NCBI GenBank assembly: GCA_002077065.1
Contig: NAJO01000038.1
Location: forward strand, 248,001-312,000
Reading direction: 5' to 3'
Source: Cryoendolithus antarcticus
Taxonomy: Eukaryota > Ascomycota > Dothideomycetes > Cladosporiales > Cladosporiaceae
Length of the DNA stretch: 64,000 nucleotides
The notes beneath the pieces were generated by a model, which saw only the letters and a list, made by a program, of their open reading frames with translations, ran no database searches and was not told the DNA's origin. The translations under genes were made by a program, and so were the position numbers. Shown here in pieces: positions 25,441-45,820 of the stretch (position 1 is the stretch's first letter; the number at the start of each line of letters is the position of its first letter).

Positions 25441-26297
25441 ATCTGTGATCTGCTTCGTGATGGTTGTGTACGTGAGGTATGAAAGGAGTTCTTCACAGCA
25501 GACGCGTGTTGAACGCGTCCGAAATGAGATGTGCCGTCCAGTCCTCTGAACCCACCGCTACCTCGCACTTAGCATAGAGTGAGGTCGCGAGCAAAGCTTG
25601 CACCGATGTCGTTGTGCCTGGAGTTGCGATTTGCGAGTATGGCCTTTGGCTTGAGCACCGATTGCTGCGAATGTGCCATAGGCGATGCAAAGAGTTGGAG
25701 TTGATGCCAAGGATTGCTCCCACGCGGTGACAGGCCCTGGATCGAGATTAGCGCGAGTCTAATGAACTCTCGAATGGTTTCCACGAACGTCATCCAACAG
25801 CTGCCGACGAAGCGAGTGCACATCAACTGGACTCGCTTAACAAATCTTCCTTGGTAGATGTTGATCTTCAAACGGCATGTCATCTGTGCGACGAGGCGAG
25901 CAAAGCGAGGCATATCGATATCTTCAACGGTTTGTTGCACTTTCAATCGCCCCCTCACCTTAGCATTCCATCGCTGCAAGATTACCTGCTGCATAATTGC
26001 CAGCGATTCGCAATACTTCACTTCACAGTCTATGGGACCTTCACAACATAGCGGTACCTGCAGCGCGCTCTCAACGCCGTATCTACAGCGGGATATCCGA
26101 TCTACGTACCCCTGCCGTGTTCCTATAACGGCAGGGCATTTTGCATATTAGCCCAGCACGCGCCTAGTGGGATTGACGTAGGCATATCAAGCCACAATAT
26201 TCATTCGCTCGTTTACTTCGGCCTGGATCGCTTTCTCGTGTTGCGCGCTGGCGTATATCGGTCGTTGCATATTGTCTGAGCGCAAACAATAAGAACG
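25441..26297. other. intergenic, divergent promoter region
   Basis: About 860 bases between the TFIIIC gene (minus) and the kelch gene (plus). A 150-codon open frame on minus (25569-26021) has an ordinary composition but no recognisable motif or support. A fragment of an undetected gene is possible; I see none that I can defend. Confidence 0.4.
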
Positions 26298-28792
26298 ATG
26301 GCGGATCCCACGCAGCAGCGCCGACGCTCTATTTTCCGCGAGACTGGATTACTGGACGACGTTGCGACTGAAGTGGCGGCTGCGACTGTACAGAATTCGA
26401 GTAAGAGGGATCGGCCTGCTACCGTAAGGTTTCGGAGTAAAGACGAAGTGCGTGTAATAGAACGATACCCTGAGTCTGCACACACAGGTCAGAGGGTACA
26501 CAGCACATCGCCACTGAGCAGCACTGCGCTCATGTATCGACTCGGTGGTCTAGCGTTCATCCTTGCGCTCGCCTTTCCAATGCTACAAAGCACCGGCTTC
26601 CTGGGGCAAAGTGCACTTCCAGTACAGCCTGTCGACGCTGGTGTGATACCAGTGACAGCACGCTCACATGCTGGAGTGGACCTGTCGAGGCGAGACGACA
26701 GTCCGACAGATGTCTGCTTCAGGTGGGCGCAACAGTCGGCGGTGGTAAATGGAACACTGTACTTGTATGGCGGACAGGCTTCGACCTCAGAGGGCCAGAC
26801 GGAGAACACATGGAACAACGACTTCCTCACACTTGACCTGACGAAGTCGTGGGACATCGGCACACCATCGCTCACTGGACTACCACAACCATCTGGACCA
26901 CCTGCTGTGGCTCTGGGTACTCTGTGGAGCTCACATGAGTCGCTATTCCTCTATGGCGGGCAAGTGTCGTGGAAGCCTATCGTCAAGCCGGGTCCATACG
27001 CTACGTGGGAGTACAGCATACCAGACCAGCAGTGGATCGAGCATAGTAACCCGAAGACATCGAGTGGCAAGAGCGCGCCAAGTAATAACGATCCTGTACA
27101 AGGCGCATCAGAAGGTGCATCCATCAGCGTTCCATCGCTGGGTCGAGGTTTTTACTTCGGTGGACATCTGGACGAGTACACCACACAGAGCTGGGCAAAC
27201 TACATACCGCGACAGTACTTGCAGTCGCTTCTCGAGTTCACCTTCCCAGACCGGGCCAATCCTCAAGTTGATGCGCTGAGCAATGGACAGAACGCTGGTA
27301 GTGACGGGAACTACCGCAATGTCACTGAGGGCGGTCTGCAGTCGAAGGCTGGCTTCACTGACCGTGCTGACGGAATATTGGTGTACGTGCCGGGCTTTGG
27401 TGATGAGGGCATCCTCATTGCTATGGCTGGTGGCACGAATGAGACCTACGTGAGTGCCCCCTGTAGTGATGGAGTAGGGCTTGAGCTGACTCAACATTAC
27501 AGACCCAAATGAACAACGTCGACGTCTACGACATCGCAAAGAGCGAATGGTACAAGCAGTCCACCGCCGGCCCTACCCCCACGATGCGCGTCAACCCTTG
27601 CGCCGGCGTCGCAGCTGCACCAGATGGCAGCAGTTACAACATCTACATGTTCGGTGGTCAGAACCTGATACCTTATGGCAATCAGTCCCAGTTCGACGAT
27701 ATGTGGATCTTGACCGTGCCATCCTTCACTTGGATTCAGGTGGATATGAGTAAGCAATCCGTCCCATACGGCCGCAGTGGGCACACCTGCAACGTCTGGA
27801 ACGGCCAGATGGTCATGGTAGGCGGCTACGTTGGCACACAGCTCACCTGCGAAAGCCCGGGTATCTACGTTTTTGACATGAGCAACCTCGCATGGGTGCA
27901 GAAGTATACTGCTATCAGCGCTGGCTCAGCATCTGGCTCTGACACCTCCAGCTCCGCCTCGTCCGCCGCATCTGGCACGGCTGCAGCAGACTCTTCGTCT
28001 CCTTCCGCGTCGTCCTTCGTATCGACTGGCGCCAACAACCCATTCAACCAACAAGCCGCACAGCTATTTAACGGCACGTCACAAGGCGGTCTCGAAGGGT
28101 CTTACGGCTACTCCGTTCCCGCAGCCGTGATCTCAGTCATCGGCGGTGGTCCCACAGGCGGAGCCACTATCACCACACCCGCTGCTTCAGCAACAGCAGG
28201 CCCAATGGCTACAGGCAAGCCAATCACCTATACCGTCACCGACTCATCCGGTGCCACTGTCACCGAGACTGCTGCTCCCGGATCGCCGAATTCAGGCCAA
28301 GCAGCGTCGAACAACAAAAAGTCCGGGCCTAACATCGCCGCCATCGTAGCAGGCGTCATCGCAGGACTGCTGTTCATCGCCGTCTGCTACTTGTTGTTCT
28401 GCACGTACGTCTACCGCAAACAGCTCGCGCTCTACAAACATCATGTCGAGATGGCGCAGCGCCAGGCACGAGGCGAGAAGACTCCCGCAATCCCAGGCCT
28501 CCTGGCATCGGACCAAGCGTCGAAATCATCGTCGGACCGCCGGCGCATGGACATGGGCGGGTACTACAAGAACTCGGAAGAGGCGAGTAGGGTGGAGAGT
28601 GGAAGCAAATACTCAAGCCAGCCACAGACGCTGGTGGGGCAGGGCAACAGCGGCGGCGGGAGTGGAGCTGGGTATCAGAGCCTGCGGCGAGAAAGCAGTG
28701 AGGATGAAGATCTGTTGGGTGGGAGAGAGCCGACGTTCGTTGGTGTGCTTTTGAACCCGAGAAGGAGTTTGAGGGTCGTCAACAAGGACTGA
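26298..28792 (+). CDS. kelch-repeat membrane protein
   Basis: Exons 26298-27449 and 27503-28792 encode 813 residues; the 53-nt intron (GTGAGT donor, GCTGACTC branch, TACAG acceptor) joins frames at a codon boundary. Domains in order: a charged N-tail (1-78), a hydrophobic segment (about 80-100) that could anchor as type II, kelch blades (about 140-570) with Leu-Tyr-Leu-Tyr-Gly-Gly, Leu-Phe-Leu-Tyr-Gly-Gly, Met-Phe-Gly-Gly and Met-Val-Gly-Gly strands, a Ser/Ala/Thr-rich linker, and a strong transmembrane helix (about 665-690). A cytosolic tail with many Ser and acidic residues ends the protein. Related fungal kelch proteins are thought to lie at the cell surface. The partner is unknown. Confidence 0.88.
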
Positions 28793-28993: not shown

Positions 28994-29308
28994 CTACCGG
29001 AAGTCAAGCACTCGAGCAGACATCGATGCTCTCTGATCTGGCCATTCGTGAAGCTCAACGTCCTCTAGCAAGTACATTGTTCGTCGCGACCTTCGGCAGA
29101 ACGGGCTCCGTTGGTAGTTGCCGTGGACCGGAAGTACTGAAGCATGTTGTCGACCTGTTGACCCGGCCTCGAGTTAGTGCAATCCACTACCATGCTGCTG
29201 ACGACAGTACGTACGGCAGTAGCTACGCCTTGCAAAGTAGATCGCGACTAATGCCAGTATGCTTGCGATGACCCCAAAGATGAGCTGGATCTTCGTGTCC
29301 TGGTCCAT
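28994..29308 (-). CDS. single-pass membrane microprotein, copy A of a four-member family
   Basis: Exons 29308-29215 and 29154-28994 encode 84 residues. The 60-nt intron has a GTACGT donor, a CACTAAC branch site and a CAACAG acceptor, and interrupts codon 32 after its first base. Residues 1-9 are short and polar (Met-Asp-Gln-Asp-Thr-Lys), 10-26 form one transmembrane helix with Phe-Gly, Ala-Ser and Ala-Leu, and 27-32 are Arg/Cys-rich. The soluble part has Arg-Gln-His-Ala, Leu-Pro-Val-His, a run of Arg, then Met-Tyr-Leu-Leu-Glu-Asp-Val-Glu-Leu-His-Glu-Trp-Pro and Ser-Ala-Arg-Val-Leu. Copies B, C and D share this plan, intron site and phase. No known family is recognised. Without the paralogues this gene would be hard to see. 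Confidence 0.82.
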
Positions 29309-30266
29309 GACCTGAATTTAGGTACAGAGCCTTGACTGGCTAGGCAGAGGAGTCATAAGTCGTGCGCATTCCTTCAATCTGCAGTGCGTGTTGGGCAGAG
29401 TGTGCTCTCGGGTCGCAATGTCGGGTATGGTGGATCAGCTGAATAAGAGACTTGTGCTTCTGTCGAGTGCTCGTGAGCCGAGACTTAGTCCCTAGACAGT
29501 CTCCGATGAGTCGTCCGTTGTAGAGCTAGGAGGGACTCTGATGACTTAGACGGAAGTACTGGCGACAAGAACATGACTGGTGAAGACAGGAAAAGCTGGA
29601 AGATATACTTGACTTCGTGGTCGACAAAGCGAGGCGAGGCACTCTCAATCAGCTGGGCGTGTACTATGATGCAGTCGCTGGAAACGCTTTCCAAGGCAGC
29701 TTTACAGTCGCAGAAGTGCTTTCGCCGCATACAGCGCAGAGGCGAAGGGATAAGTTAGCTGAGCGTCCGCTGGGCAGCGGATATAGAAGGATCCGGAGCG
29801 TCGGCGAGACGCCAGTGCCGACGAGCAAGTGTAGCGATAAGCTGGGCGGCAAGTTGCTTCGCCACAAACGAAGCGACGTTCTCTCCAGTCGGTCCAGGCC
29901 TGCGTCTATTAGCGTCGCTTTCGCTCCACGGATGTTGCTGCGCTCCGACTCGGCCAAGTCTCGACCATCATATAATATCGTACCGCGCTGCCTGCGCAAT
30001 AATCAGCTGATCATTCAAGCATTGTGGTGTTGAAGGGTTGAGACGGTGGCAGGTACGAAGGCTCGCCGTGAATCGACTATCGAGCAAATTGAGTGTACAA
30101 AGGACGTCTTGGGCAATCCTGATGCGACATTGAAGACACTTGTATTACTATTCAAGACGTCCTGTTCTCCAAGTAATTTCCAGCCCTGAGCTCCCGTACG
30201 CCGCCATCCTCCCGCTGGTATCACATCGTAGTCCTACCGTACACTCCGCCTATCCCTCCGGCGTCT
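29309..30266. other. intergenic
   Basis: About 960 bases between microprotein copy A and the RCR gene, both on minus. It includes the copy A promoter. Overlapping open frames at 29617-30033 (both strands) have no recognisable features. I looked for another microprotein copy and found none. Confidence 0.45.
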
Positions 30267-30929
30267 CTACCTCACGACTGGTGGCGGCCCCTTGGGCGGC
30301 GCGTATGCTCCTCCGTACGCCTGCTCAGGCTGCTGCAGCTCGATGGGGTTGTTGTTATTGTTGTTTCCATAGTATCCTGCATTCGCACCTTGGCCATACG
30401 CTGGTGGGGGGTTGTTGCTGTTGTTGTAGTACGGCTGCTGAGTCTGCTGATTTCCATACTGCGGCGCTGCGCTGTTGTACTGCGCAGGGGCGTGGCCAGC
30501 AGGAGTGCGGCCGAGAGTCCAGCCAGTGCCGCGGAAGGGAGCGTGGCCGTTCTTTCGGCGACGGCGCGCGGTGATGCAGCTGTGATGGGTCTGTCAGAGA
30601 TTGTAATAGGTCAAACTCTTGGAAGTTGCAGGCTTACGAGAAGACGAAGAAAATGAAGAAAGCGGCGAGGATGATCAGGGCGAGGACGAGCCAGCGGGCC
30701 CAGTTGCTCCAAGCGCTGTTGCGACATCTTTGACGGCCGTAGGCATCGTAGTAGCAGTTGCTAGGAAGGGATACAGTCAATGTTTGATACTATGAGCCAT
30801 GACTGCGCTGTACGGAGGCTCGCAACAATGACCGAGCGCGTTGCTAACGACTCTCACAGCCATACCGTGTGTGGACAGTGGACCATACCTGTTGTTATTG
30901 TTATATTGTCTTGTTTCGAGCGCAGGCAT
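30267..30929 (-). CDS. RCR-type membrane protein (Congo red resistance family)
   Basis: Exons 30929-30889, 30760-30638 and 30579-30267 encode 158 residues; introns are 128 and 58 nt with GTATGG and GTAAGC donors, and all junctions keep frame. Order: a short Asn-rich N-terminus, a Cys-Tyr-Tyr-Asp-x-Tyr-Gly-Arg-Gln-Arg-Cys segment, one transmembrane helix (about 36-54), a basic Ala-Arg-Arg-Arg-Arg-Lys stop-transfer, then an Asn/Gln/Tyr/Pro-rich cytosolic tail. The tail has a Pro-Pro-Pro-Ala-Tyr site of the PPxY type that binds WW domains of Rsp5-like ubiquitin ligases. Yeast Rcr1/Rcr2 affect chitin deposition and endosome-vacuole sorting of plasma-membrane proteins. A similar role is an inference from architecture. 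Confidence 0.82.
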
Positions 30930-32163
30930 CTTGGCTGAGATCACACGCGAGTCCTTGTGTTCGAAGATCTGGTCGCAAGTCGTCGCACGATAGCAAGATT
31001 TGAGGATTCGTCAGGTTATGTGCGTTGGTAGGTTCCACAATGCGACAGAGATAGGTAGATGTAAGTGACGACAGAAGTCACAGATGGCAAGTGGTCCGGT
31101 CTTTGTACGCCGGATGACGAGGTCAAGCTTGGTGATGGAGATGATCGCTTGGCGTGAACGTTCGATGCGCAGCACTCAGCCACACATCTGATCACGGCGA
31201 GCACGCGGTCTCGCAAATCTAGTCTGCACAGAGGTGGTATTTGCGAGGCATAATTGTCATGACATACACATGTTGAGAGCGTATTCGCTTCTCTCTATCG
31301 ACACCTCCGCAGCCTCACGGCGTGTTCGGAATATTGATTCCATCGCAGCTATGTCACTCATGCCCCAGGGCATCTCCGCCACAGCGATCTTCGACATGAC
31401 GTGCACCCAAGCCAAACTCTCGAAGCAAGGATCGCTCGGCGAGAACCTGGCTCGGCATTTGTCTTGCAAACTCTCCACTTTCTTCGCTAGGCTCAAAACA
31501 GCTCCTTGCGACTGCCAGCTCAGCGTGCATGAGCTTTCAAAGAACACAGCCAATCATCGCGCAAGGACGCGATGTCAAAAGGTATGCGCTGGCATTGGGT
31601 CTGTGCGAGAGGTAGGTGTTTGGGAGGAATTTTGGAGAGCACATCTTGATCTCTTCTTCATCCATTCCCTCATGATTAGGTTGTGTGGCAAAGGAAGCGC
31701 GAGCGACACTGGCGAATTCCTTGTCATGTCCCAACGACATGATTGGGGTTGCAACGTTGACTCTGCGGACGGCATGGCGGGAGGAGGCCTTCAACAATCA
31801 GCACGACACCAAGCAAGACCGATCACTGGCTGCGGAAAGAGCCTCTGAGATGAGGAGCCTCATGAGATGATTGGCAGCATTGTCACTGTACTCGTATACT
31901 CATCTCTCGTGTCCTATGCTGCGCTCCTATTCTCTATGAGAAATACACCGGCACCTGCTTCTGATTCAATCATGCCACCCGCTGGCCGTGAGCAAGGACA
32001 AAAGAGACCCAGAGCTCCCCTAGCCATTGCTGGCACGCAGCTCTCCGCGCTGTCATCCACTCTCATGCCCAGGTAATGTCAGGGTCGTAGGAAAGTCAGA
32101 TCGCTATGCGGTCGTGGCGTCGTATAATGCGGCAATGGCCATGGTTGGCAAAGATACCGGCGC
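30930..32163. other. intergenic, possible undetected gene
   Basis: About 1.2 kb with no gene I can support. A 204-codon frame on plus (31234-31848) has a shadow-like composition. On minus, two adjoining frames (31797-31537 and 31553-31257) look somewhat more protein-like, the lower one with a regular amphipathic pattern (Ala-Lys-Lys-Val-Glu-Ser-Leu-Gln-Asp-Lys-Cys). I could not find splice sites that join them convincingly, and no domain is recognisable. Confidence 0.3.
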
Positions 32164-33080
32164 TCACTTGCTAGCTCTCGCGATGAGCCACTGCAAGACA
32201 GCGTCCAGGTTAGTCTCTTCCTTTGCACTGATGCCGTAGCAGGACACCTCCCGATGCGTCACACGCTTTAGATCGAGAGCCTCGATGATTTGGTCGACGT
32301 TGAGATGGCCTGGAATGTCGGACTTGTTCCCGAGGACGAGGAGCGGGATGCCCTCCATCGCAGGCTTCTCGAGCAGGATGTGCAGCTCCTCTTTGGCGAC
32401 GGGCAGAGCCTCCTTGTCCGCTGAGTCGACGATATATCTGCGTTGTCAGTATATTGGGGTCCAGGAGGCTGTCGCAGGTACTTACACGATGGCGTTCACG
32501 CCTCGGCAATATCGCTCCCACATCGATCGAAAGCGAGGCTGGCCACCGAGATCCCAGCTGCGTGCTGTCAGCATCACGACGTCGACACAGACCCTCCGCG
32601 GAGTCAGCGAGCGTGGAGAATCCCTACCACTTGAGGGTGACATGGCCCTTCTGGACTCGCTTCATGTTGAAGCCTACCGTCGGTATCGAGCTGATGGTCT
32701 TGTCAGCGCACGACACATGCAGCGACTCTGTGCGTAACAACATACTCGATGGTGAATTCACCGCCCTATTCGGTATGTCAGTATGATAGGCAGGAGCGTG
32801 GCTGGTTCAGGTTAGCATACCGCAAGCACGCGCAATAACGAGGTCTTTCCGGCATTCTGCAGACCGATCATGGTAATGTCCATCTCGGTCGCCCTGCAAT
32901 CGCATCAGTACACGGCACATGGCTGCTATCGGACCTCTTAAGTCGATTCATGTTCAAGGACAAAGCAAGTTCAGGCACCAACTCAGTTCGCCTTTACCGC
33001 CACTCACTACCACAACGCAAGACAACATACCAGAACAGGCTCAAGAGCCAATCATACAGCCGCCTGAAGATACCCGCCAT
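32164..33080 (-). CDS. ARL8: Arf-like small GTPase Arl8
   Basis: Six exons: 33080-33031, 32893-32821, 32765-32746, 32690-32628, 32557-32486 and 32437-32164, encoding 183 residues (animal Arl8 is about 186). All five introns (48-137 nt) have GT/AG ends and restore the family sequence exactly. G-boxes: [28 protein letters not shown]. The block [12 protein letters not shown] is Arl8-specific. The N-terminus is an amphipathic helix starting Met-Ala, without the Gly2 of myristoylated Arfs, as in Arl8. The family sits on lysosomes/late endosomes and recruits transport effectors; the fungal role is less studied. Exon 3 is only 20 nt. Confidence 0.95.
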
Positions 33081-33989
33081 CCTGATCACACTTCAGTGTG
33101 TCCGCCGTTGATGACTCGGTAACCTAAGGTATGCTGGCAAAAGCTACTGCGCCTCTCGTGGTAGTGGGTCTAGCGGTCGGCGAAAGAGAAGGTACGGTGC
33201 GCGCCCGAGCGGAACCAGCACAAGCAGCAATTAGTCCTGCGATAATGAAAGGTAAGAGGCAAGGTTCCCCGGTTTGCAGGTTAGATGCAGATGAGCAACG
33301 AGTGGACTGGAAGTGTTGTGGATGGCGCGCTTGGCGAATGTGCAGGTGGATGTGCGGGGCGGTTGGACTGGATCCGCGGGGGAGGGAATTGGTGCTGTGA
33401 GCTACCGGACGGGTAAAGATGCGATAGCTTGGAGACTTCACATTAGCAAAGTGAGAAGTAGAGATCATACTCAGAATACCTTTATTTCGCATATGCCTTG
33501 TGTACACACCGGTCGGCAGCGAGACGCGCGCGAAAGAAAAGTGGCACAGATCTGAAACGCTGTCGCTTGTTCTGGTGATCGCTGCACGAGCCGAGTTCGG
33601 TCCGTCGCCGCCACCTCTGTCCCGATCGTGTTGTACTGCCGCCGCCCGGTAAGACGAGATGGCGTTTCAAGACCACTCGCTCACCCGGAACGAGTTGATG
33701 GTGCACCAGATCACGTCGCCGTTGCACGATTCCGACTATCTCGCGGCTTGGCAGAGCGATGGAAGGTGCAACCGTGGGAGCGGCGGCAGGCGGCCGAAGC
33801 CGAGCCTTATCGATACTTCGGCATTTGAAAGCCCGAAGATTTTCTGAGAGCTTGACAAAAGTTTGGACGAGATAGATTGATTGCAGGTAAGGCCATACTT
33901 GATACTGTTCTGGAGTTACGGCGCATACTATAATGAATCAATACCTCTTAATCTAGACTGTTAAGATCCAATCTTTACCGCAGCACATC
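33081..33989. other. intergenic, divergent promoter region
   Basis: About 900 bases between ARL8 (minus) and the Pol I subunit gene (plus). Open frames such as 33124-33507 on minus and 33659-33847 on plus lack recognisable features. No repeat or RNA gene is seen. Confidence 0.4.
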
Positions 33990-36900
33990 ATGGCGCCCTC
34001 AGCGACATTACCAGAGCCAACATGGAGCACCCAATTCGATACCCTCAAACGACATAAGCTATTCCGAAAGCCACCAGCAGACAAGACAGCATACCCTTCG
34101 CTAGCCCGAGCAATAGAGCCTCATGTTCAATCCTATAACTCGATATTCGTACCCAACGGTCAACTCCACCATGCACTCCAGGACATTGGCACCAAGACCT
34201 TCCTGGACGGTAACCCGCTGGAACCCTCGGAAGAACCTCGCAACAGGCTCCAGATCCGCGTGCGAGAAGTCTTCATGGAGAAGAGTCAGTTGCCACCCAC
34301 CAATAAGGTCGAAGCAATAAAGCGCGAGATCCTCCCAGTGGAGTGCAGAGAACGGCATGTCACATATCGAGGACGCTTCCGAGGTCGCGTGGAGCTCCGA
34401 GTCAACGATGGGCCATGGAAGGAGAGCGTGCGGGACTTTGGCTATGTGCCCATCATGCTGCGGTCGAATCGGTGTCACCTGGAAGGTCTGACGCCAAAGC
34501 AGTTGATTGATCGAAGAGAAGAGACGGAAGAACTTGGAGGGTACTTCGTAGTCAATGGCATTGAGAAGCTTATTCGGATGTTGGTGGTGAACAGACGGAA
34601 CTATCCGATGGCAATCATCCGTCCGTCATTCGTGGGAAGAGGCAACACTTACACGAAGTACGGCATACAAATACGGTCTGTTCGGCCAGACCAGACTTCG
34701 CAGACAAACGTGTTGCACTATCTGAGCGACGGAAATGTGACATTCAGATTCTCGTGGAGGAAGAACGAGTTCCTCGTGCCGGTCATGATGGTGCTCAAGG
34801 CATTATTGGAAACGACGGATCGTGAGATTTACGAGGGTGTACTTGGACGACTGGAAGCGGATCAGCTAGAGGGCAAGCAATTCGTCATCGACCGGGTCGA
34901 GTTGCTGTTGCGAACTTACAAAGGCTACAACCTTTTTGGCCGATCGAGTACTCGAGCATACCTGGGCTCGAAATTCAGGCCCGTGCTCAATGTGCCCGAC
35001 GATTTGAGTGACCATGATGTTGGTACCGAATTCTTGCGAAAGATCGTACTGCCTCATCTCGGGTCGCATGACGTGACGGAAGAGAACGATAGCGACAAAT
35101 TTCGCATGCTGATCTTCATGGTCCGCAAGCTGTACGCTCTGGTCGAAGGGGAGTGCGCCATCGACAATCCTGATGCAGTGCAGAACCAGGAGATCCTATT
35201 ACCTGGCGCACTGTATGGCATGATCATCAAGGAGCGAATAGACGAGTGGCTGCTGTCCATAGGAGTCGCATTACGAGACTGGGGTCGGCAGAATCAGTAT
35301 CCTGCTTTCACGAGCAAAGACTTCGAACGAGATTTTCTGACCAAGACTATCCGGAAGACGAATGAGAACCTAGGCCAAGCGCTGGACTACTTTCTCTCGA
35401 CTGGTAATCTGGTGAGTCCTTCGGGGTTGGATCTGCAACAGACGTCTGGATTCACCGTCGTCGCCGAGAAGATCAACTTCTACCGCTTCATTAGTCACTT
35501 CCGAATGGTGCACAGAGGTAGCTTCTTCGCCCAGCTGAAGACTACGACTGTGCGAAAGCTCCTGCCCGAGAGTTGGGGATTTCTCTGTCCAGTACATACA
35601 CCCGATGGCTCGCCTTGCGGACTGCTGAATCACCTCGCACATAAATGCCGAATAGTGACTACCGAGTCAGATGTCTCGCAGATGAACAAAGTACTCGCGA
35701 CCCTTGGCGTCAACAGCGGATCCATGGCCACTGTCGATGAGCACATGCCCATACAGCTTGATGGCAAGCTGCTTGGGTACTGCTCAGAGAAGCAAGCGAA
35801 GGTCATTGCTGATACAATACGACACTGGAAGGTAGAGGGAAGCCATGGCGTTCCGGCGCAGCTTGAAGTCGGTTACATTCCACCCTCAACAGGTGGTCAA
35901 TTCCCCGGCGTGTTCATGTTTTCTACTGTTGCACGTATGGTGCGTCCGGTCAAGTACCTGCCTCTGGAGAAAGAGGACTTTGTCGGACCATTTGAGCAAC
36001 CTTTCATGTCGATCGCTTGTACTGAGCTTGAGATCACGTCCGGTGACTCGACGCATGTGGAGTATGATCCGACAGACATCCTCTCGATCGTCGCGAATCA
36101 GACACCTTTCTCGGACTTCAATCAATCGCCGAGGAACATGTACCAATGTCAGATGGGAAAGCAGACGATGGGTACACCTGGTACTGCATTGAAGTATCGG
36201 ACGGATAACAAATCATACAAGCTGCAAACAGGCCAAACGCCAGTTGTGCGACCGCCATTGCACAATGAGTACGGCCTCGACAACTTTCCGAACGGCGCCA
36301 ATGCTGTTGTCGCTGTCATCTCGTACACAGGGTACGATATGGACGATGCCATGATACTGAACAAGTCCGCTCATGAGCGCGGTTTCGGACACGGCACCAT
36401 ATACAAGACCAAGAAGCTTGACCTTACAGAAGAGAACAAGAACCGGAGTCGAAGTACAGTCGTTACCAACATGTTTGGGTTCGCCGACGGCGGGGTCGTC
36501 AAATCGCAGTGGAAGGACACACTTGACACAGACGGTCTAGCATTGATCGGTGTCAAGGTCAGAATGGGCGACATCATCGCGGCCTCACACACAGTGGTCA
36601 AAGACCCAATCACGGGCGACTACATCAATCGGGACGGTATCACTCACTTGCACAGGTACAAAGACCCCGAAGAAGCTTACATCGAAGAGATAAAGCTCAT
36701 CGGTAATGAGACAGGGTCCAACGAGCCTTGTCAAGCCCTCAGCATACGCCTCCGTCTGCCTCGTTCCCCAGTCATCGGCGACAAGTTCTCCTCTCGACAT
36801 GGACAGAAAGGTGTACTCAGTCAGAAGTGACCGATGGTCGATATGCCATTCTCCGAGTCAGGCATGCAACCAGACATCATCATCAATCCTCACGCCTTCC

Positions 36901-37631
36901 CTTCACGCATGACTATAGGCATGTTCGTCGAATCCCTGGCTGGAAAATCCGGCGCACTGCATGGTATGGCGCAAGACTCGACACCATTCAAGTTCAAGGA
37001 TCATGAAGGTGAGACAGCAGTGGAGTACTTTGGCCACCAACTCAAGCGCGCTGGCTATAACTTTTACGGTAATGAACCGATGTACTCTGGTATCACTGGG
37101 CAAGAACTCGGCGCAGACATCTACGTCGGTGTGGTCTACTATCAGCGTCTTCGACACATGGTGAATGACAAGTTTCAAGTCCGCACTACCGGACCAGTCA
37201 CACCTCTCACTGGTCAGCCGATCAAAGGTCGTTCAAAGGGTGGTGGTATCCGTGTCGGCGAGATGGAACGAGACGCACTTCTGGCTCACGGTACGGCTTT
37301 CCTCCTACAAGACCGCTTGCTGAACTGCTCCGACTACACGAAAGCCTGGATCTGCAAGTCGTGCGGATCATTCTTGAGCACGCAGCCTTCCTACGCTGGA
37401 CAGTACACCCGCAGCAGGGGTGTTGAGGCTAATCGCGTGAGGTGTAGACGATGTAGTCGGAAGGTCAAGGGTGTCGTGGAAAGTAAGAGTGAGGCCTGGG
37501 AAGATCGCAGTGGGCAGAAATGGCTTGGAGGCGAGGATGTGACTGTTGTTGCTGTGCCGGGGGTGTTGAGATACTTGGATGTGGAGCTGGCTGCTATGGG
37601 GATTAGGCTGGAGTTCAAGGTCGGGCCTTGA
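33990..37631 (+). CDS. RPA2: DNA-directed RNA polymerase I second-largest subunit, with in-frame TGA
   Basis: Second-largest (beta-like) subunit of RNA polymerase I, which transcribes rRNA genes in the nucleolus (A135 in yeast). The frame spans 1213 codons plus the terminal stop, but codon 947 is TGA (36828-36830). Both sides belong to one protein: before it Ser-Arg-His-Gly-Gln-Lys-Gly-Val, the active-centre motif of beta-like subunits; after it [19 protein letters not shown]. The conserved hybrid-binding and wall regions and the C-terminal zinc site (Cys-Lys-Ser-Cys ... Cys-Arg-Arg-Cys) are intact. Family members have Trp at the TGA position as far as I recall, one base change away. No intron can remove it. 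A protein ending at 946 would lack the clamp and zinc site and should not work. Confidence 0.9.
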
Positions 37632-38169
37632 TGTGTGCTTGATGAGAAGTCGGACATGATCATGTACGAAATACCCAGACGTCCTAAGGCACGCAAGACT
37701 CATATCGCTTCGTTGGTGAGATCTTGGTTTCGAGCATGTCAATCCAACAGCATGTGGACCGCGTCACTTAGCGATGGCATGTATCCTATTGCCACTGGCT
37801 GCCCATAGGTGCGGCCTCATCCAATGATCTTCTTGCACCTCCACAGTTGTACCTGAGCTCGCACCCCGCATCGGTACTAGCGTCGTTGTCGTGTCAACGA
37901 CAACTCGGTCAAGTTTACTATTTAACCCAGCCTGAACCCCAGACCCGCGGGCTGCATGGCACCGCCACGCCATCCGAGAGAAAGAACGAGCAGGTGGTAA
38001 GTAACATGTCTTCTTTCTCTCATTCACATCCAAAGGTGTCTCCTAAATATCTGGGACTATCTTCTTCTGTATCAGCTATCTACGTGCAAATCGACCTAAC
38101 AGGCTACTCAAAAAACCGTCGCTTGCTACGATCTAGTTGACAACGAGATCAATCCGCTCGCCGTATGAA
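37632..38169. other. intergenic
   Basis: About 540 bases between the Pol I subunit gene and microprotein copy B, both on plus; it should contain the copy B promoter and leader. An out-of-frame ATG at 38165 lies five bases before the copy B ATG. Nothing else is recognised. Confidence 0.45.
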
Positions 38170-38480
38170 ATGGACCAAGGCACCACAATCGAGCTTATCT
38201 TTGGCATAGTCGCGAGCCTGCTAGCGCTGATAGCAATCTACTTCGCACGACGCACTTCTCATCGTGGGTACTACTCCGCATTCGACAGGCAGGATGCGGA
38301 AGGATAGTCACTAACTCGCTAGATCGTCCTGACGTCGACGTCCTCATACACCGTGACGAGCGACTTACACCACCACGCCGTCTCCTTCGAAGAAGTCGCT
38401 ATCGGCGAGAAGACATTGAGATGCACGAATATTTCGTCGAAGGCATCCAGGGACCCATCACTTGGACTGTGGAGACTTGA
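38170..38480 (+). CDS. single-pass membrane microprotein, copy B of a four-member family
   Basis: Exons 38170-38263 and 38323-38480 encode 83 residues. The 59-nt intron has a GTGGGT donor, a CACTAAC branch site and a GCTAG acceptor and splits codon 32 after base one, exactly as in copy A. The start Met-Asp-Gln-Gly-Thr-Thr-Ile-Glu and the helix Leu-Ile-Phe-Gly-Ile-Val-Ala-Ser-Leu-Leu-Ala-Leu-Ile-Ala-Ile-Tyr-Phe-Ala-Arg-Arg align without gaps to copies A and C. The second exon is the most diverged: Val-Leu-Ile-His, a run of Arg, Arg-Glu-Asp-Ile-Glu-Met-His-Glu are kept, but the Trp-Pro that follows in the others is lost. An out-of-frame ATG overlaps the start region and could reduce translation. 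Confidence 0.78.
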
Positions 38481-39163
38481 TCAGTTGCACACATCGTTGC
38501 AAAAGCTTGAAATTCAAGAATCTGCATCGCGCTGCTTGCTTGGCAGGAGGATAGAACGGCGGCGCTCTCCATTCGGGTATTTGGAGTGGAGTCTAGGCTG
38601 GATTGCGAACTGAGACCTTCGTGGGAACGAAGCACGAGACGCAGGTCTCTATGGCGAGCGGATGCCATGGACACTTCCGCTGCGACCATCAGGAGCTACT
38701 ACTGTAGCAGGGTCTTCTCAATAATGCCCATTGGGGGATCATACATGTGATAGTAGCTTGGTCAATGGCGACCCGGAGTGCAGTGCAATGCTTATTCGAA
38801 GTCTGTTCCGCAAACCCAAGTGCGCTTCTCCAAAACTCTGACGTCACTTCCTCTAGTCATAACATGTATTGTCTCCCATTATCCGTAGCATTCGAGCAAT
38901 AGACTACTGAGGTACGTCTGGGACAGCCTCGACACCACACAATCATCAATGCCTTCTAATGCTTTTCCACTCGCGTTGCAAGTCAGGCTCGCCCACGTGG
39001 GTGTGCTTATAGAAGCAGAAGAGCCTTCTGAACTTCGAAGAACGCCCCGGGGTTTTGCGGAATAGAGGCTACGAAAGCATTGTGGTGTGGCAATTGAAAG
39101 TAGTGTGGCGAGCGTCAAGTGCCAAGCCAATCCTTCATGCACGGTTGAATCTCTCGCCTCTGA

Positions 39164-39224
39164 CGCTCGCCACTCCTCCCATGCATACTGAAGTGTATGG
39201 GGCGAGTAGCTCTGCCACGATGTA
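39164..39224 (+). repeat. direct repeat unit 1 with inner palindrome
   Basis: Begins CGCTCGCCACTCCTCC and matches the unit at 39290 at roughly three quarters of positions over about 55 bases. It contains the inverted arms CATAC (39184-39188) and GTATG (39195-39199), and outer arms CTCGCC / GGCGAG, so it can fold as a nested hairpin. A further inverted partner, GGCGAGCGTC, lies at 39106-39115. Confidence 0.7.
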
Positions 39225-39289
39225 TCGCAGGCACGCCATCCGTACATGCATGCTGCGGCCCTCTAGCTAGTTGCCACTGCTGATATTCG

Positions 39290-39350
39290 CGCTCGCCACT
39301 CCTCCTACGCATACTGAACGGTATGTGGCAAGTCGGTCTGCAGACGTAGG
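39290..39350 (+). repeat. direct repeat unit 2 with inner palindrome
   Basis: Second copy, 126 bases downstream of the first. The inner arms CATAC (39310-39314) and GTATG (39321-39325) are kept while the loop has changed, and the outer arms are CTCGCCAC and GTGGCAAG (one mismatch). Conservation of the arms with loop change hints that folding or symmetric protein binding matters, but two copies are few. Confidence 0.7.
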
Positions 39351-39695
39351 ACGCCTCCAGTTGTTGCCCCCCGGTGGCGTGAATTGCGTTGCGGTCAGTG
39401 AGTATGCCATTTCATGGCCACAATCTGGGTGAGTACATATTGAGTATCGCACGTCCTTTAAATCAGCTTTCCTGGCTCCATTGGCATTCAAGTATCATCT
39501 CTCCACCCTACTTCCCTCCCGAGTCTACAGACGAACACCTCGTAGACAAGGTCAACAAGACACGTCTGTCAAGACCGACCCCGCAGCAGATTTGGGCGAT
39601 CACGTCGAAACAGAGCCGTCGGATCAGAGTACCTCGTAACTATTGAGAGCTGTACAGGCATCTCACACGACTTTGAAGACACAGCCGACCCATCT

Positions 39696-40040
39696 ATGGA
39701 TCAGGACATCAAGGTCCAGGTCATCTTTGGCGTCATCGCAAGTATACTCGCTTTGATTGGGATCTACTTCGCTTGGCGTAGTCGGACTCGTAAGTACCTA
39801 TGAGCCCCTAGCACTATTTCCATGAAACCGATGAGTGATATACCATATGCCCTATGACCGAGACTGATAGAGACAGGTCAACACGCGGGGACAATCCTGC
39901 CCGTTCACAGTTCACAAGTTCAGCCTGATCCGCATCGACGCCCGCGTTGGACTGTCTACATGCTGGAAGACATCGAGGTCCATGGGTGGCCAGAGCAGAG
40001 GCACGCAATTCTCACTCCGCGAATTACAGAGACCGTATGA
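39696..40040 (+). CDS. single-pass membrane microprotein, copy C of a four-member family
   Basis: Exons 39696-39789 and 39877-40040 encode 85 residues. The 87-nt intron (GTAAGT donor, GACAG acceptor) splits codon 32 after base one, as in the other copies. The start is Met-Asp-Gln-Asp-Ile-Lys-Val-Gln and the helix is nearly that of copy A, with Trp in place of one Arg after it. The second exon opens with Arg-Gln-His-Ala and Leu-Pro-Val-His as in copy A and has Val-Tyr-Met-Leu-Glu-Asp-Ile-Glu-Val-His-Gly-Trp-Pro-Glu-Gln-Arg. The terminal TGA overlaps the ATG of another open frame (ATGA at 40037-40040). No known family. Confidence 0.82.
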
Positions 40041-40282
40041 CCTCCGCCAAGTCGGTCCCGCCTCCTAGTCAATTTCGCTTCACTGTGACATTGACAACCG
40101 CGCAAGGCCGGGCGCAGGACGACATTCGGTCGATCAAGACCAGGACGGTGGAGATCTTGCGACGACTCACGGACCCTACCGTGTCGCACGTCGAGACGGT
40201 TGCGGTACATGCTGGAAGGGGAGAGATTCTGTACAACCTGAGAGCCGCGTTGACGTCTGGACGAGTGCTTGGAGGAAAGTGA
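40037..40282 (+). CDS. possible small ORF overlapping the copy C stop
   Basis: An 81-codon open frame whose ATG overlaps the stop of copy C. The translation has an alternating beta-like stretch (Phe-Arg-Phe-Thr-Val-Thr-Leu-Thr-Thr) and a helix-like Ile-Lys-Thr-Arg-Thr-Val-Glu-Ile-Leu-Arg-Arg-Leu-Thr, which looks more like protein than chance. However, eukaryotic overlap of this kind is unusual, no homologue is recognised, and copies A, B and D have no similar frame after them. It may be a chance frame or a missed downstream exon. Confidence 0.25.
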   Translation: MTSAKSVPPPSQFRFTVTLTTAQGRAQDDIRSIKTRTVEILRRLTDPTVSHVETVAVHAGRGEILYNLRAALTSGRVLGGK

Positions 40283-41349
40283 GGAATTTCGGATAGAGAT
40301 AGAGTCTGAACCTTCGCATGGGTCTACGAAGGGACCACAGTATTAGATGCCTGACGTGGATTCTTCGTCGCCACCCTCAGCCTCGCCTCACACAGATATC
40401 AATCGATAGATATGTCAGGGCATATCGACATCATCTGGTCAATTCAAGTGATCCCACAGTGGCTGCCTGTCCGCACATCAGATCTCGTCCGTCACAGTTA
40501 TGATGGCACGCGCCGTCACTGCACATCCAGAATCGCCAACAGACTCGCCGGACTGCTTGAATGTTGGCGAGCGAGCCTCGTTCAGCAACCCAGACCTCGA
40601 CCGATACTGTCCGAAGGCTTTGGGCAGTGCCAATTGGTCGGCGTGTAGCCGCTAGATCCACCGGCTATGCAGAATGTATGAGACTTCATGCTCGATGGAC
40701 GTCGTGGAATGGTGGAATGATGCCTGGATAGTGCTCAACACAGCCACGCGATCGTGCGGCCATACTACACTAGACACGGTTTAGCGTCCGAACCTTGACA
40801 TGCTTGGCATGGCCCCACTTTCGCTGTGCCCAACCCCGATGATCTGGTGAAGCGAATGTCTATCCGCCGGCTTGCATGTGTCTGAGAGTGCTGTGTTCTA
40901 CCCTTCGGTGCCCCTGCTCACAGTCGCGAGCAGTATGCCACCGCATCATCTCTGCCACTGCTACTTAAAGGCAGCCTTCTCTCCCTCCATATGAAGGCAC
41001 TTACATAGTCTCCCGCAATGATCCCGAGCTTGTACTATACTGTTATACCACATGTCCAATGCATTTGATATGACATCCTCATCCTGTTGAGTGGACTTAA
41101 GCTGGGAAAGGCGGCGCTGTACTGAGTCGGTTGTGCACTGCTATCGAAGCTTTCGCGGGCTTCATATCCACCTCGATGTTCCATGTCACCGTCGACAAAA
41201 TCAATCAAAATCAAACGGGACTCGCGTCGTTCTCCACGGACGACATCTGGACATTACCTCGAGACCGTAAACAGTCTTGACAGTATTTATCGCCGCCGCT
41301 GTCGCCCCCAAGCCGTATCAGTGGCTCGAATCGTTTCATCGACGTCAGG
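40283..41349. other. intergenic
   Basis: About 1.07 kb between copies C and D. Short open frames only; none has recognisable features. The last 150 bases should include the copy D promoter. I found no remnant of another family copy. Confidence 0.45.
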
Positions 41350-41659
41350 ATGATGAATCAAGACACCCTCGTCCAGCTTCTATTCGGCCTAATCGGATCC
41401 TTACTTGCCCTCGCGACGATCTTCGTTGCGCTTCGATACCGCATTCGTAAGTCTCATACCAGCTCTAATGCTCGTTCGACATTGACCGACAGCGATAGGT
41501 CACACCCGACCCACGTTGCCCCTCTACCACAACAATATGCACTTGCTAACACGCCGCCGGGCTCGACGAACGATGTACATGTTGGAGGATATCGAGTCGC
41601 ATGGCTGGCCAGAGGAAAGGTTGGATGTTCCGTCCGCTCGGGTGCTAGAGGTGGAATAG
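41350..41659 (+). CDS. single-pass membrane microprotein, copy D of a four-member family
   Basis: Exons 41350-41446 and 41499-41659 encode 85 residues (one extra Met at the start: Met-Met-Asn-Gln-Asp-Thr). The 52-nt intron (GTAAGT donor, GATAG acceptor) splits the corresponding codon after base one. The helix is more diverged (Leu-Leu-Phe-Gly-Leu-Ile-Gly-Ser-Leu-Leu-Ala-Leu), but exon 2 is very close to copy A: Arg-Arg-Ala-Arg-Arg-Thr-Met-Tyr-Met-Leu-Glu-Asp-Ile-Glu-Ser-His-Gly-Trp-Pro, ending Ser-Ala-Arg-Val-Leu-Glu. So the helix and the tail evolve at different rates in different copies. The gene ends about 165 bases before the convergent RPN3 stop. Confidence 0.82.
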
Positions 41660-41825
41660 TAGTTGATGATGGCATGTGTAATGGATTGTACGACCGCATT
41701 GTGTAGGACGCTTATCATTGTTGCTGATTAGCTGTTGCTTCGTCTATCAGTACAAACCTTCCGTCGTTTTGACCGTTTATGTCAGTGCCCTTGCTACCTT
41801 GACACTCGTCCTCGTACATCAGTCC

Positions 41826-43455
41826 CTACATCCCCTCGAACCCTCCCTCATCCCCCTCATCAACATCGCCCTCTCCCTCAATGATCTCCTTCGCGATCTC
41901 CCTCTCCCGCTCCCTAGCCTTCGCAGCCTCAGCAATCTCCTGCTTATGCTTGTGCATAGGGTACCTCATAGCCATCACACACTCGTCCCTCATACCAAGT
42001 AGCGCACTGATCCTGGCATGGAAAGCCTCACTGGGCTCTGTCGTGCCGTAAGCGTCCTTGGGAGGCGTCGTGAGCATGTGCCCGTTCTGGTGATCAAGCG
42101 AAGCTTCGATCACGCCGTCGCGGATGGCTTTGGCGGTGATGTACTCAGCTGACTCTTCGGAGGAGATGTGCAGACGGGTGCAGATGTCGCGGAGGGAGAT
42201 GCGGGAGTAGGAGAGGGAGAGCATGCGGACGCCGGTCTTGATGACGTTTTGACGGAGGCGTTGAATTAGGGTAAAGGTGCCGTCTTTGCGGAATTGCGCG
42301 GAGTGGGTCTCAACACACTTCAGGAAGGCCTCAAGATCGCCGACGCGCACTGCTTGGACGAGCTTGAGGTAGGGGTAAAGTGCAGATTCGAGTTGGGGCT
42401 GGCGGAAGAGGGAGCGTTCAGGGATGTCGCCCATGAGGAGCTCGACTACTATGAGGAGCTTCGTTGCTTGTTGGTAGAAGCCTATCGCTGGGCCGGATGT
42501 GGGAGACTTGCGGGTGGCGGATACGAGGTGTTCTTGTGCCTGCGTGTAGGCCAGCTGAATGGCGCGCACTCGGCCAAGGTAGTAGAGATAGCGGCATACT
42601 TGATTGTTGGATGCGGTTGAAGGAAACTGTGTTTGTGCGATGAGGAGATCGGCCTGGGTGATGTCGGCTGTGGAGATGTAGCTGCGAAGGAGAAGTACTG
42701 TGACAGCCGCCTCGGTGTCGGCATCCTTTCGAATTACGGCAGATCTCTGCGCTTGCAGTAGCTTTGGTCGAATCTCGATGACCGGAGACTGCCGTGATGG
42801 CGGCTTAGGGTCGAGCTGTTCGTGAAAGAGTGAGTAGTAGAAGTAAGCCTTGGCGCCTATCGGATCGAGCGTTCTCCGGTTGAAGCTCCGCAGCTTGTCA
42901 ACAAACTTATCGCTGAAGTCCGCACCCTTTTGATATTGCTGTGTGTCATAGAGATAGACCTGCACTAATCAGCGTTGTGTTCTCACTTTCGTTTGCTCCC
43001 ATCACTCCACATACCTGCACCAGCACGCCCAGGTACGACCAGATCTCGGGTATCACTTCCTCATCGCCGCCCTTCACTGGCGTACTCGATCCATTCTGCA
43101 GTACCTCTCCCTTCTGTGGCAAGACTGACTCCAGCACCTTACGCGCGGAAAAGTCTGGCTTCGGGAATGCTGTTCTTATACCATGTAGTATGGGCGCGGG
43201 CGTGTTTTTTGCCTTCCGAACGGTCGATATTGACCGCAGAGCGCGGAGTGTGAAGCGCGCATCGAACGTCTCCACTGCCTGTGCTAGCAGAATGAAGTTG
43301 TCGGTGATTACTAGAGGCAATTGTCAATATGGATATCTTCAGCGCGAGGCAACGCAGGTGTACGCACTGCGCTCAACGGACTTCTCTTGGACTGGGGCGA
43401 CGGCTTCGGCCTGCTTGTCGCCATTGACGGCATCGATGTCCATCTTGTCCGCCAT
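41826..43455 (-). CDS. RPN3: 26S proteasome regulatory subunit Rpn3
   Basis: Non-ATPase lid subunit of the 26S proteasome (PSMD3 in animals), 505 residues. Exons 43455-43368, 43310-43015 and 42959-41826; introns of 57 and 55 nt (GTGCGT and GTATGT donors) keep frame. The C-terminal half has the PCI domain with helical repeats, including Tyr-Leu-Tyr-Tyr-Leu-Gly-Arg, Gln-Ala-x-x-Lys-Leu-Leu-Ile-Val-Val-Glu-Leu-Leu-Met-Gly-Asp-Ile-Pro-Glu-Arg and a winged-helix segment Ser-Tyr-Ser-Arg-Ile-Ser-Leu-x-Asp-Ile. The tail is highly charged (Glu/Lys/Arg then Asp/Glu/Gly), typical of proteasome lid subunits. Confidence 0.95.
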
Positions 43456-43825
43456 CCTGAGTTGTGTGAGGAGAGGAGGTTAATGTGCAGTATTGTTGGT
43501 GTTGTCGCGTGCAGTCGTAGTGACGTTCAAGCCAGCGTTCATAGTCGAAAGTCAAGACGCGGCCTCATTCCGCCTGGAGCTCGGAACTCTCATTATGTCA
43601 GCGACGCGCTCAGACGCGACTTCACTTCACTTGCCTTGTGTTGATTTCGTGGTCTTGCAAACGTTGCACAGCCAGCGCGGCTTGACAGTGTACTCTGCGA
43701 ATGAATAACTGATCTAATGAGTCACTCGAATGAAGGGTAAGAATCACCTTCATCGGATCTATTGGATTGCTGGGACTGGGCTTCCACCCTGCTTCGTTGA
43801 AGGGAAGTCTGCATAGCACATAACC
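43456..43825. other. intergenic, divergent promoter region
   Basis: About 370 bases between RPN3 (minus) and SPC34 (plus), holding both promoters. I looked for a proteasome-type control element (GGTGGCAAA, known from yeasts) and did not see it. Confidence 0.45.
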
Positions 43826-44563
43826 ATGGCGTCCCTCCTCTCGTCTCATCTGGAACAGATTTCCCTCTGCTCCACTTCCATAGCCGACCTCTCCTTCCCT
43901 GGTCCAAAGATCTTCATGAATGCTCTGCTCTCAACCCAAGACATTACGGCTCTGATCCGCGACACCGAAGCTCATGAACGCGCCTTGTACCATCTCGCAG
44001 CCCCATCTCTGCCTCAGAAGCCTGCAGCTACAGACTACAGCCAGCACGCGACCCAGGCATCTCGACGGGCAACAGTCTACCCTGCCTATGCAGCCCGGCA
44101 GCCCAAGAACAAAGCTGTCGCTGCAGTTTTGGGAGGAGATCTCTACCAAGCTACCCGTCGCCCGGAAGCCGGATTGCGGCCAAAAGGCGAGATCGATGTC
44201 GAAGTCCTACTGCAAGGCGCCGAGAAGCTGGCGGCAGTCTACCCCATCCCCGGCGCTACGGCAAGGATGTCTGAGTTGCGACGGCGCCAGCATCAGTTGG
44301 AGGCTAATGTGGCGCACTATGAGGAGAGAGTGGCGAGGCAGACGAGGGAGCTGGACAGGATGAAGGGACGGTGGGAGAGTGGCGATGGAGTTGCGGATGG
44401 CGAGGCAGTAGAGGAGCAGCAAGGGATGGATGAGTGTGAGGTACTGACGAAGGAGGATCTTGAGAGGGAAGAAGAGGAGGTCAGAGAACTCGAGAGGAAG
44501 AAGCGAGGACTGGAAGAACGGGTCACTGGGATGGAGCGGGACCTTGGGGGATTGATGAGATGA
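43826..44563 (+). CDS. SPC34: DASH complex subunit Spc34
   Basis: 245 residues, single exon. The DASH/Dam1 ring couples kinetochores to microtubule plus ends in fungi. The N-terminus matches Spc34: an opening Leu-x-x-His-Leu-Glu-Gln-Ile, then Phe-Pro-Gly-Pro-Lys-Ile-Phe-x-Asn-Ala-Leu-Leu, Asp-Ile-Thr-x-Leu-Ile-Arg-Asp-Thr-Glu-Ala-His-Glu-Arg-Ala-Leu. The C-terminal 110 residues are a strong coiled coil (Glu/Arg/Leu heptads, then Glu-Glu-Glu-Glu-Val-Arg-Glu-Leu-Glu). Length agrees with the family. Confidence 0.9.
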   Translation: MASLLSSHLEQISLCSTSIADLSFPGPKIFMNALLSTQDITALIRDTEAHERALYHLAAPSLPQKPAATDYSQHATQASRRATVYPAYAARQPKNKAVAAVLGGDLYQATRRPEAGLRPKGEIDVEVLLQGAEKLAAVYPIPGATARMSELRRRQHQLEANVAHYEERVARQTRELDRMKGRWESGDGVADGEAVEEQQGMDECEVLTKEDLEREEEEVRELERKKRGLEERVTGMERDLGGLMR

Positions 44564-44859
44564 AGACGCTCGATTGATGGCTTGTCACAGCATGCAGTCC
44601 ACGATTGTGACTCATCCTTCTCAATGCCAATCCCAAGTCGAGGCAGATGCATGCTCTCAACCCCCAAAACGCCACAGTCGACACTGTACTGAGTTCAGTG
44701 GACCGAGCTGTTCGAATTGGTCGACGAGGATCAAAGCCGTCATCGCCTCCGAAAAGCAGTCGGGAAACAAGATCGCTGCCATTCCGGCCGAGCCACGCCA
44801 CGCCTATCACACACGGGATCCGGCTTTTAGATCTGGCTTTATTGCGGGATTGACGCAGC

Positions 44860-45820
44860 TCAGTAGTCATCATCGCCATACCGGCCCTCGTTTCGGCCGG
44901 CATCGTACGAATCGTCGACACGATCACGGAAGCGGTCCACGTCGTCGCCGAAACGCTCGACATCGCCAACCTTATCGCCGGCCCACTGAGATAAAGTTAG
45001 CTTCTCCTTAGCCACGGCGCAAGAGAACAGGACTTACGTTCGCCACATTCTCGGGAGCATCCTCGACATCGTCGACCGCGTTGTCCCACTTCTGCTCGAC
45101 GCGACCATCGAAGCGGTCGATGCCTCCCTCGATGTCCTGAGGAATGCCCTCCACTTCTCCGACCTTGTTGCCGGTCCACCTGGATATTAGTAGTCAGTCA
45201 AACGAGCACTGGTCAAGAGAATGGAGGGAACGCACTGCGCAGCATTTTCCGGGAAGTTCTCAGCGTCGTTTTCCCAGCGTCGCTTGTCGCCATCCCAATC
45301 TTGCTCTAGCATTATGCGTCAGTTCAATAGACTTCACTCCAAGTCAAGGAGAATACTCACTCAGTTCCTCGCCCTCATGCATAGCCAACGCGCCAGCTCC
45401 CAACCCCAACGCCGCGCCGCCCAGTCCATACGCGAGCCCATGCCCGCCCTTTTTCTGCTGTTCCTGGGCATACCCTCCACCGTACCCGCCCTGCTGACCG
45501 CCGTACCTTGGCCCCCCGCCATAACTCTGCTGCCCTGCACCGTACCCACTCTGCTGCCCGCCATACCCGCCTTGCTGCCCGCCGTACCCACCACCAGGGA
45601 ACTGAAACGTGCGCTCCCCAGTCTGCTCGTTAATGTAGATGAGACGGTTCTCGCGATCGTCCCAGCGTGCCACCCAGGGGTAGGGTGGCTGAGGTGGTGC
45701 ATTGTTGCCATAAGATTGGCCGTAGCTGCCGCCTGGCTGATTGTAGTCCACGGGTTGCTGTTGTTGATTGTTATGGTTGCCCATGAAGTTCTCGGCCATC
45801 TTTTCGAGGAAGCCTGCCAT
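44860..45820 (-). CDS. WW-like domain protein with internal Trp/Asn repeats
   Basis: Exons 45820-45361, 45305-45236, 45179-45038 and 44985-44860 encode 265 residues; introns are 52-56 nt with GTGAGT, GTGCGT and GTAAGT donors. A WW-like domain at about 46-75 has Trp-Val-Ala-Arg-Trp-Asp-Asp and Tyr-Ile-Asn-Glu-Gln-Thr-Gly-Glu, but the second signature Trp is Phe (Phe-Gln-Phe-Pro). A Gly/Tyr/Gln repeat region follows (77-130), then a Gly/Ala/Leu hydrophobic patch (134-149). The last 115 residues contain two copies of a Trp-(Glu/Asp)-Asn ... Pro-Glu-Asn-x-Ala-x-Trp-x-Gly-x-Lys-Val-Gly-x-Val-Glu module. Function unknown. Confidence 0.85.

Follow-up and report, generated by a model that had tools for sequence, protein, structure and literature searches.

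A lineage-restricted family of spliced genes for putative single-pass membrane microproteins in Cryoendolithus antarcticus

Results

Four small spliced genes in the window

We analyzed a stretch of 64,000 nucleotides of DNA from Cryoendolithus antarcticus (Rachicladosporium antarcticum), an Antarctic rock fungus (contig NAJO01000038.1, here C82, positions 248001-312000). For this stretch, called the window below, a sequence-only reading had proposed four tiny spliced genes encoding paralogous single-pass membrane microproteins. All four genes (g1 to g4) were present at the proposed positions and on the proposed strands, with GT...AG introns in phase 1 (Table 1). The proposed protein lengths of 84, 83 and 85 amino acids (aa) held for g1 to g3, whereas g4, for which 85 aa had been proposed, encodes 84 aa when its intron is placed at the conserved site. 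To reach 85 aa, translation of g4 has to begin at the upstream ATG, 41350 (MMNQ...), whereas Met-Asn-Gln begins at the ATG at 41353. Alignment of the four proteins showed 19 invariant columns out of 85, and CTAAC- or CTGAC-like branch sites were recognized by eye in most members of the family.

An initial pattern search was uninformative: it gave 6 matches, and the reversed pattern gave 4. In a leave-one-out test, a profile built from three of the genes was searched against the six frames of the window, and the fourth gene was scored. The left-out first exons reached 56.2 (g1), 42.4 (g2), 45.5 (g3) and 33.2 bits (g4), and the second exons reached 46.3, 13.0, 42.8 and 42.9 bits, respectively. 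When the window was resampled 20 times with a first-order Markov model, the best match of all four profiles scored 13.4 bits, and the top match in the real window beyond the four genes scored 13.2 bits. Compared with this resampled maximum, seven of the eight exons stand out but exon 2 of g2 does not; the assignment of g2 rests on its exon 1, its intron site and an appropriately spaced EDIE motif. A window match at 40095-40238 (≤13.2 bits) was rejected, as it equals the level of the resampled window.

Table 1. Coordinates of the four genes in the window and of the two broken copies elsewhere in the genome
Feature	Position	Strand	Remarks
g1 exon 1 (94 nt; encodes the N-terminus and the predicted membrane helix)	29215..29308	-	leave-one-out profile; homeolog m117a on C117
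g1 intron (60 nt, phase 1; GTACGT...CACTAAC...ACAG)	29155..29214	-	
g1 exon 2 (basic tail, YLLEDVELHEWP), including stop	28994..29154	-	leave-one-out profile
g2 exon 1 (94 nt)	38170..38263	+	leave-one-out profile
g2 intron (59 nt, phase 1; GTGGGT...CACTAAC...GCTAG)	38264..38322	+	
g2 exon 2, including stop; most divergent tail, EDIE present, WP absent	38323..38480	+	weak, 13.0 bits, chance level
g3 exon 1 (94 nt)	39696..39789	+	leave-one-out profile; homeolog m66a on C66
g3 intron (87 nt, phase 1)	39790..39876	+	
g3 exon 2 (VYMLEDIEVHGWPEQR), including stop	39877..40040	+	leave-one-out profile
g4 exon 1 (94 nt, starting at the later of the neighboring ATGs 41350 and 41353)	41353..41446	+	leave-one-out profile; homeolog m66c on C66
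g4 intron (52 nt, phase 1)	41447..41498	+	
g4 exon 2 (MYMLEDIESHGWPEER), including stop	41499..41659	+	leave-one-out profile
Two broken copies	L038:4789-5095 and L039:5079-5401		

Family members in the genome

We searched the genome (46.97 Mb, 149 contigs) with six protein queries (g1, g2, g3, g4, the model m76c from contig C76, and the database protein P0003 described below), each of which returned 10 to 12 family loci. The published assembly of C. antarcticus CCFEE 5527 is reported to comprise 47.4 Mb in 267 contigs, with 18,781 genes (PMC5502844). The union of the six queries contained at least 14 loci in five clusters, with four loci on C82, three on C66, two on C117, three on C76 and two on C105; locus counts are lower bounds. 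These loci comprise 12 intact models, homeologs counted, and two broken copies, so the four members of the sequence-only reading were an undercount. In all 12 intact models, exon 1 is 94 nt long and is followed by a GT...AG intron of 52 to 87 nt in phase 1. Because we placed the donors at the conserved site in every model, the site is shown to be usable in all 12 rather than independently predicted. For one member, an independent check of the splice model was provided by m76c, which equals, letter for letter, the database protein P0002 (B0A48_13440 of Cryoendolithus antarcticus). The two broken copies lie near intact ones: by eye, m66b on C66 has lost the aligned start codon and the splice donor, and m117b on C117 carries a frameshift in exon 1. 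A match on C63 (E = 0.03), located in a long Ser- and Gln-rich open frame, was rejected as chance.

The proteins fell into two clades, separated with a support of 1.0 in a FastTree analysis. Clade A (83 to 85 aa) contains g1 to g4, m66a, m66c, m117a and the database protein P0001, and clade B (73 to 80 aa) contains m76a to m76c, m105a, m105b and P0003; inner branches of clade B were poorly resolved (support, 0.00 to 0.90). Alignment of the two clades with hhalign showed that they are homologous (probability 98.5, E = 2.9e-15).

Relatives in other fungi

P0001 from Oleoguttula sp. CCFEE 5521 (E = 8.1e-34) and P0003 from Rachicladosporium sp. CCFEE 5018 (E = 4.3e-19) are colinear with the family proteins, and homologues with a conserved reading frame thus exist outside the C. 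antarcticus genome. Oleoguttula is placed in the Teratosphaeriaceae by NCBI, and Cryoendolithus is placed in the Cladosporiaceae. Three word-based searches of a database of 5.8 billion proteins, run with an E-value limit of 1 for A1 and of 10 for A2 and A4, yielded 410, 1163 and 50 candidates and no relatives beyond P0001, P0002 and P0003. These searches see only database proteins that share 5-residue words with the query and do not show that the family is absent elsewhere, for instance from unannotated eukaryote genomes. None of the 11 other intact models came back, and one of the 12 thus seems to be present in the database. This annotated member, P0002, lies outside the window. With only one of 12 intact members returned, spliced genes of ∼80 codons can evidently be overlooked by fungal catalogues.

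The hypothetical proteins LTR95_011831, B0A48_13440 and B0A51_05660 are unnamed members of the family. No literature was found on these three locus tags, and no description of the family appeared among the titles and abstract beginnings listed by our literature search, which covered mostly journals outside subscription. As judged from sequence, this is a new lineage-restricted family of predicted small membrane proteins, a known kind of protein.

Homeologous blocks and copy number

The window matched C66 at 35609-37635 (89% identity), 41346-43631 (84%) and 39082-40214 (72%), and it matched C117 at 28792-24929 (86%). Likewise, C76 matched C105 over two stretches of ∼3 kb each (85% and 79%). The homeologous blocks cover window positions 24929-28792 and 35609-44958 (with gaps) and L038, L039, L040 and L041, with 72 to 89% identity, and they point to a hybrid or whole-genome-duplicated fungus. 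A phylogenetic study of the Dothideomycetes refers to "massive gene duplication" in Rachicladosporium (PMC7325674).

Copies come and go between homeologous loci: within the examined stretch of C66, nothing matched the part of the window that holds g2 (37635-39082), and an additional copy, m66b, was present, the g4 stretch matching both m66b and m66c. In a small tree, g3 grouped with the Oleoguttula protein P0001 (0.85), not with its own homeolog m66a, and m105b grouped with the Rachicladosporium protein P0003 (0.90), not with its own homeolog m76c. These groupings hint at homeologs that predate the species splits (a hybrid origin), but the proteins are too short to settle the matter.

Purifying selection

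We pooled four syntenic homeolog pairs (g1/m117a, g3/m66a, g4/m66c and m76c/m105b), 325 codons in all; the pool thus covers eight of the 12 intact models. Pooled nonsynonymous (dN) and synonymous (dS) divergences were 0.23 and 1.02, giving a dN/dS ratio of 0.22, and dS ranged from 0.77 to 1.33 in individual pairs. Changes at the three codon positions numbered 79, 55 and 147. The proportion of synonymous differences (pS) was equal to or lower than that of nonsynonymous differences (pN) in 0 of 2,000 bootstraps, for each pair and for the pool. Two neighboring genes were compared: RPA135, over 266 codons of its C-terminal part, had a dS of 0.80 and a ratio of 0.004, and RPN3 (380 codons) had a dS of 0.69 and a ratio of 0.013. 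Given the ratio of 0.22 versus these values, the family is constrained yet fast evolving. Ratios calculated by the Nei-Gojobori method (NG86) were 0.08 to 0.28 in 10 of 11 pairs, the remaining pair being saturated.

The Yang-Nielsen method (YN00) gave higher dN/dS values, 0.16 to 0.48 in the 7 of 11 pairs that yielded one, so the constraint is best described as moderate. The sequence-only reading had also stated that the similarity spans both exons while introns and flanks differ. Identity in exon 1 was 0.79 to 0.83 in all four pairs, and in three of them the identity of both exons exceeded that of intron and upstream flank, with upstream identity of just 0.38 to 0.49 in g1/m117a, g4/m66c and m76c/m105b. 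The statement did not extend to g3/m66a, in which exon 2 (0.67) did not exceed the intron (0.73) or the upstream flank (0.67 to 0.73), nor to the downstream flanks of g4/m66c (0.77, above the 0.62 of exon 2) and m76c/m105b (0.66, the same as exon 2). High identity of flanks and introns would also be expected from homeologous synteny.

Should the copies be mostly relics, i.e., decaying or neutral duplicates, or a dispersed noncoding repeat, then broken loci (m66b and m117b, 2 of 14) and a tail as divergent as that of g2 would be expected. However, 12 of the 14 loci are open and keep the intron site, pS exceeded pN in every bootstrap of the four pairs, and relatives occur in two other species; we regard this explanation as very improbable. 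Together, the purifying selection in the four homeolog pairs agrees with the earlier proposal of genes under selection, and the loci are almost certainly real coding genes.

We also considered selfish or killer-like proteins kept in variable clusters, either intracellular toxins that act on membranes or proteins of the incompatibility type. The copy-number differences between homeologous loci (the g2 stretch unmatched in the examined stretch of C66 and the extra m66b), the broken copies and the moderate dN/dS are all in line with such proteins. The selection is nevertheless purifying overall, not diversifying, and the clusters retain their homeologous flanks, which makes a toxin function improbable in our judgment.

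Protein anatomy and predicted topology

All 14 proteins of the two clades have one hydrophobic stretch, with a maximum 19-residue mean hydropathy of 1.88 to 2.63 and a next peak of ≤0.37. An AlphaFold2 model of P0001 contains a helix at residues 3-34 and a short helix at residues 64-70; by blocks, the predicted local distance difference test score (pLDDT) was 83 to 95 for residues 1-30 and 51 to 55 beyond. Hydropathy and AlphaFold2 thus both predict the single membrane helix that had been proposed. Within the helix, all 14 proteins share F11, S16, L18 and I23, and 13 have G12. In the tails, a [DE]x[DE] motif is found in 13 of 14 proteins and WP in six of the eight clade A members; P0001 has WL instead of WP.

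On the N-terminal side of the helix the net charge is -1 or -2 in all 14 proteins, and the 15 residues that follow the helix carry +1 to +4. By the positive-inside rule, the N-terminus probably faces the outside or a lumen, with the basic tail in the cytosol. The small size, the hydrophobic segment right at the N-terminus, the rapid evolution and the tandem arrangement would also suit secreted small proteins or pheromone-like precursors, in which the hydrophobic stretch would serve as a signal peptide whose cleavage releases the basic tail. Against such precursors, the acidic N-side and the positive charge after the helix (14 of 14 proteins) are the opposite of the charge arrangement of a usual signal peptide; furthermore, 10 of the 12 models lack cysteine and no repeated unit was seen. 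We accordingly give secretion little weight.

Other features of the window

Upstream of g3, at window positions 39164-39341, lies a 52-nt direct repeat in two copies (85% alike, 126 nt apart), which show an inner near-palindromic symmetry by eye; related sequence occurs upstream of m66a (L038 2578-2755). Open reading frames (ORFs) at 58343-59479 and 57323-58318 (-) resemble that of a HET-domain (heterokaryon incompatibility) protein, and very His-rich ORFs at 16471-19337 (-) presumably encode zinc transporters of the cation diffusion facilitator kind. No tRNA genes were found in the 64-kb window.

Discussion

A proposed role at the membrane

We propose that these are lineage-restricted single-pass membrane microproteins acting as accessory subunits or regulators, a statement that, taken as a whole and drawn from sequence, has in our view an even chance of being correct. 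The short acidic N-terminus would lie outside or in a lumen and the basic tail in the cytosol; the conserved helix would pack in the membrane against its own copies or against a larger membrane protein; and the tail, with its basic run, LP[LVI][YH]-like element and acidic [DE]x[DE], could act as a linear docking signal or as an ER-exit or Golgi-sorting signal (ER, endoplasmic reticulum). The proteins would then support or regulate a membrane protein, much as the yeast proteolipids Pmp1/Pmp2 do for the plasma-membrane H+-ATPase Pma1, and variation of the tail from copy to copy may tune the partner or the place. We favor this role because conservation is highest in the helix and the protein has no feature that looks catalytic. 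The role together with a larger membrane protein is, by itself, put forward tentatively. More specific still, a dozen interchangeable single-helix regulators of one pump or transporter, shared with near relatives, might tune the membrane for cold and desiccation, an idea that we consider decidedly unlikely.

Several observations weigh against an accessory role. The tails of the two clades, aligned alone, match weakly (probability 48.7, E = 1.8e-4), and the AlphaFold2 model of P0001, made from 3 sequences, is weak (mean pLDDT 65.6; predicted template modeling score, 0.31). The conserved positions do not fall significantly on one face of the helix (permutation test of periodicity, P = 0.17), and the neighboring genes look housekeeping. 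Finally, [DE]x[DE] is short, is likely to occur by chance in acidic tails and is missing from the intact m66a.

The same motif bears on another possibility, that of trafficking adaptors whose cytosolic acidic motif recruits an ER-exit or Golgi coat while the protein carries cargo. Acidic motifs of the [DE]x[DE] type have a role in trafficking, and such adaptors would fit the motif in 13 of 14 tails and the basic residues adjoining the helix; its shortness and its absence from m66a make this explanation unlikely.

The homeologous copies offer ready-made comparisons. A rock fungus, Rachicladosporium sp. (CGMCC 3.30118), is described as having been transformed and silenced by RNA interference (PMC12560822). 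If that strain carries the family, its function would be testable there.

Comparison with known protein families

A Pfam scan of 13 members returned seven families at E values up to 1 (best, 0.0094), none of which is a proteolipid family, and every match listed for g1 to g4 was below its cut-off. The best-scoring family for g1 was DUF202 (PF02656), whose likeness covers the helix and adjoining residues; at 16.8 bits (E = 0.0094) the match was below the cut-off of 23.4 and covered profile positions 37-68 of 68 only. One further member matched DUF202 with a weaker E value. NCBIfam matches were weak, and a profile search of Protein Data Bank sequences returned one chain at a nonsignificant E value of 0.33.

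In shape, the family resembles yeast Pmp1 and Pmp2, very small fungal proteins (∼40 aa) that cross the membrane by a single helix and are basic on the cytosolic side, an orientation that is predicted for the proteins described here. Pmp1/Pmp2 are reported to be a duplicated pair supporting ATPase activity, joint loss of which halves Pma1 activity in Saccharomyces cerevisiae, and loss of the Candida orthologue reportedly caused no significant change in growth, filamentation or biofilm (PMC6521590). The genes studied here differ from that pair in being interrupted by an intron, in encoding a longer tail that carries an acidic motif and in numbering 12 intact copies, homeologs included. We do not claim membership in the Pmp1/Pmp2 group, because the Pfam scan matched no family of that type.

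A second likeness is to the conserved fungal small ORFs of a survey of 31 genomes (PMC7394265), which are conserved, span ∼80 codons or fewer and are easily missed by standard annotation. That survey, in whose main text the word Dothideomycetes is absent, covered ORFs of up to 80 residues, whereas the clade A genes encode 83 to 85 aa and are spliced. Two traits of membrane microproteins encoded by small ORFs are a length under 100 aa and a conserved coding frame, and the family combines lengths of 73 to 85 aa with a pooled dN/dS of 0.22.

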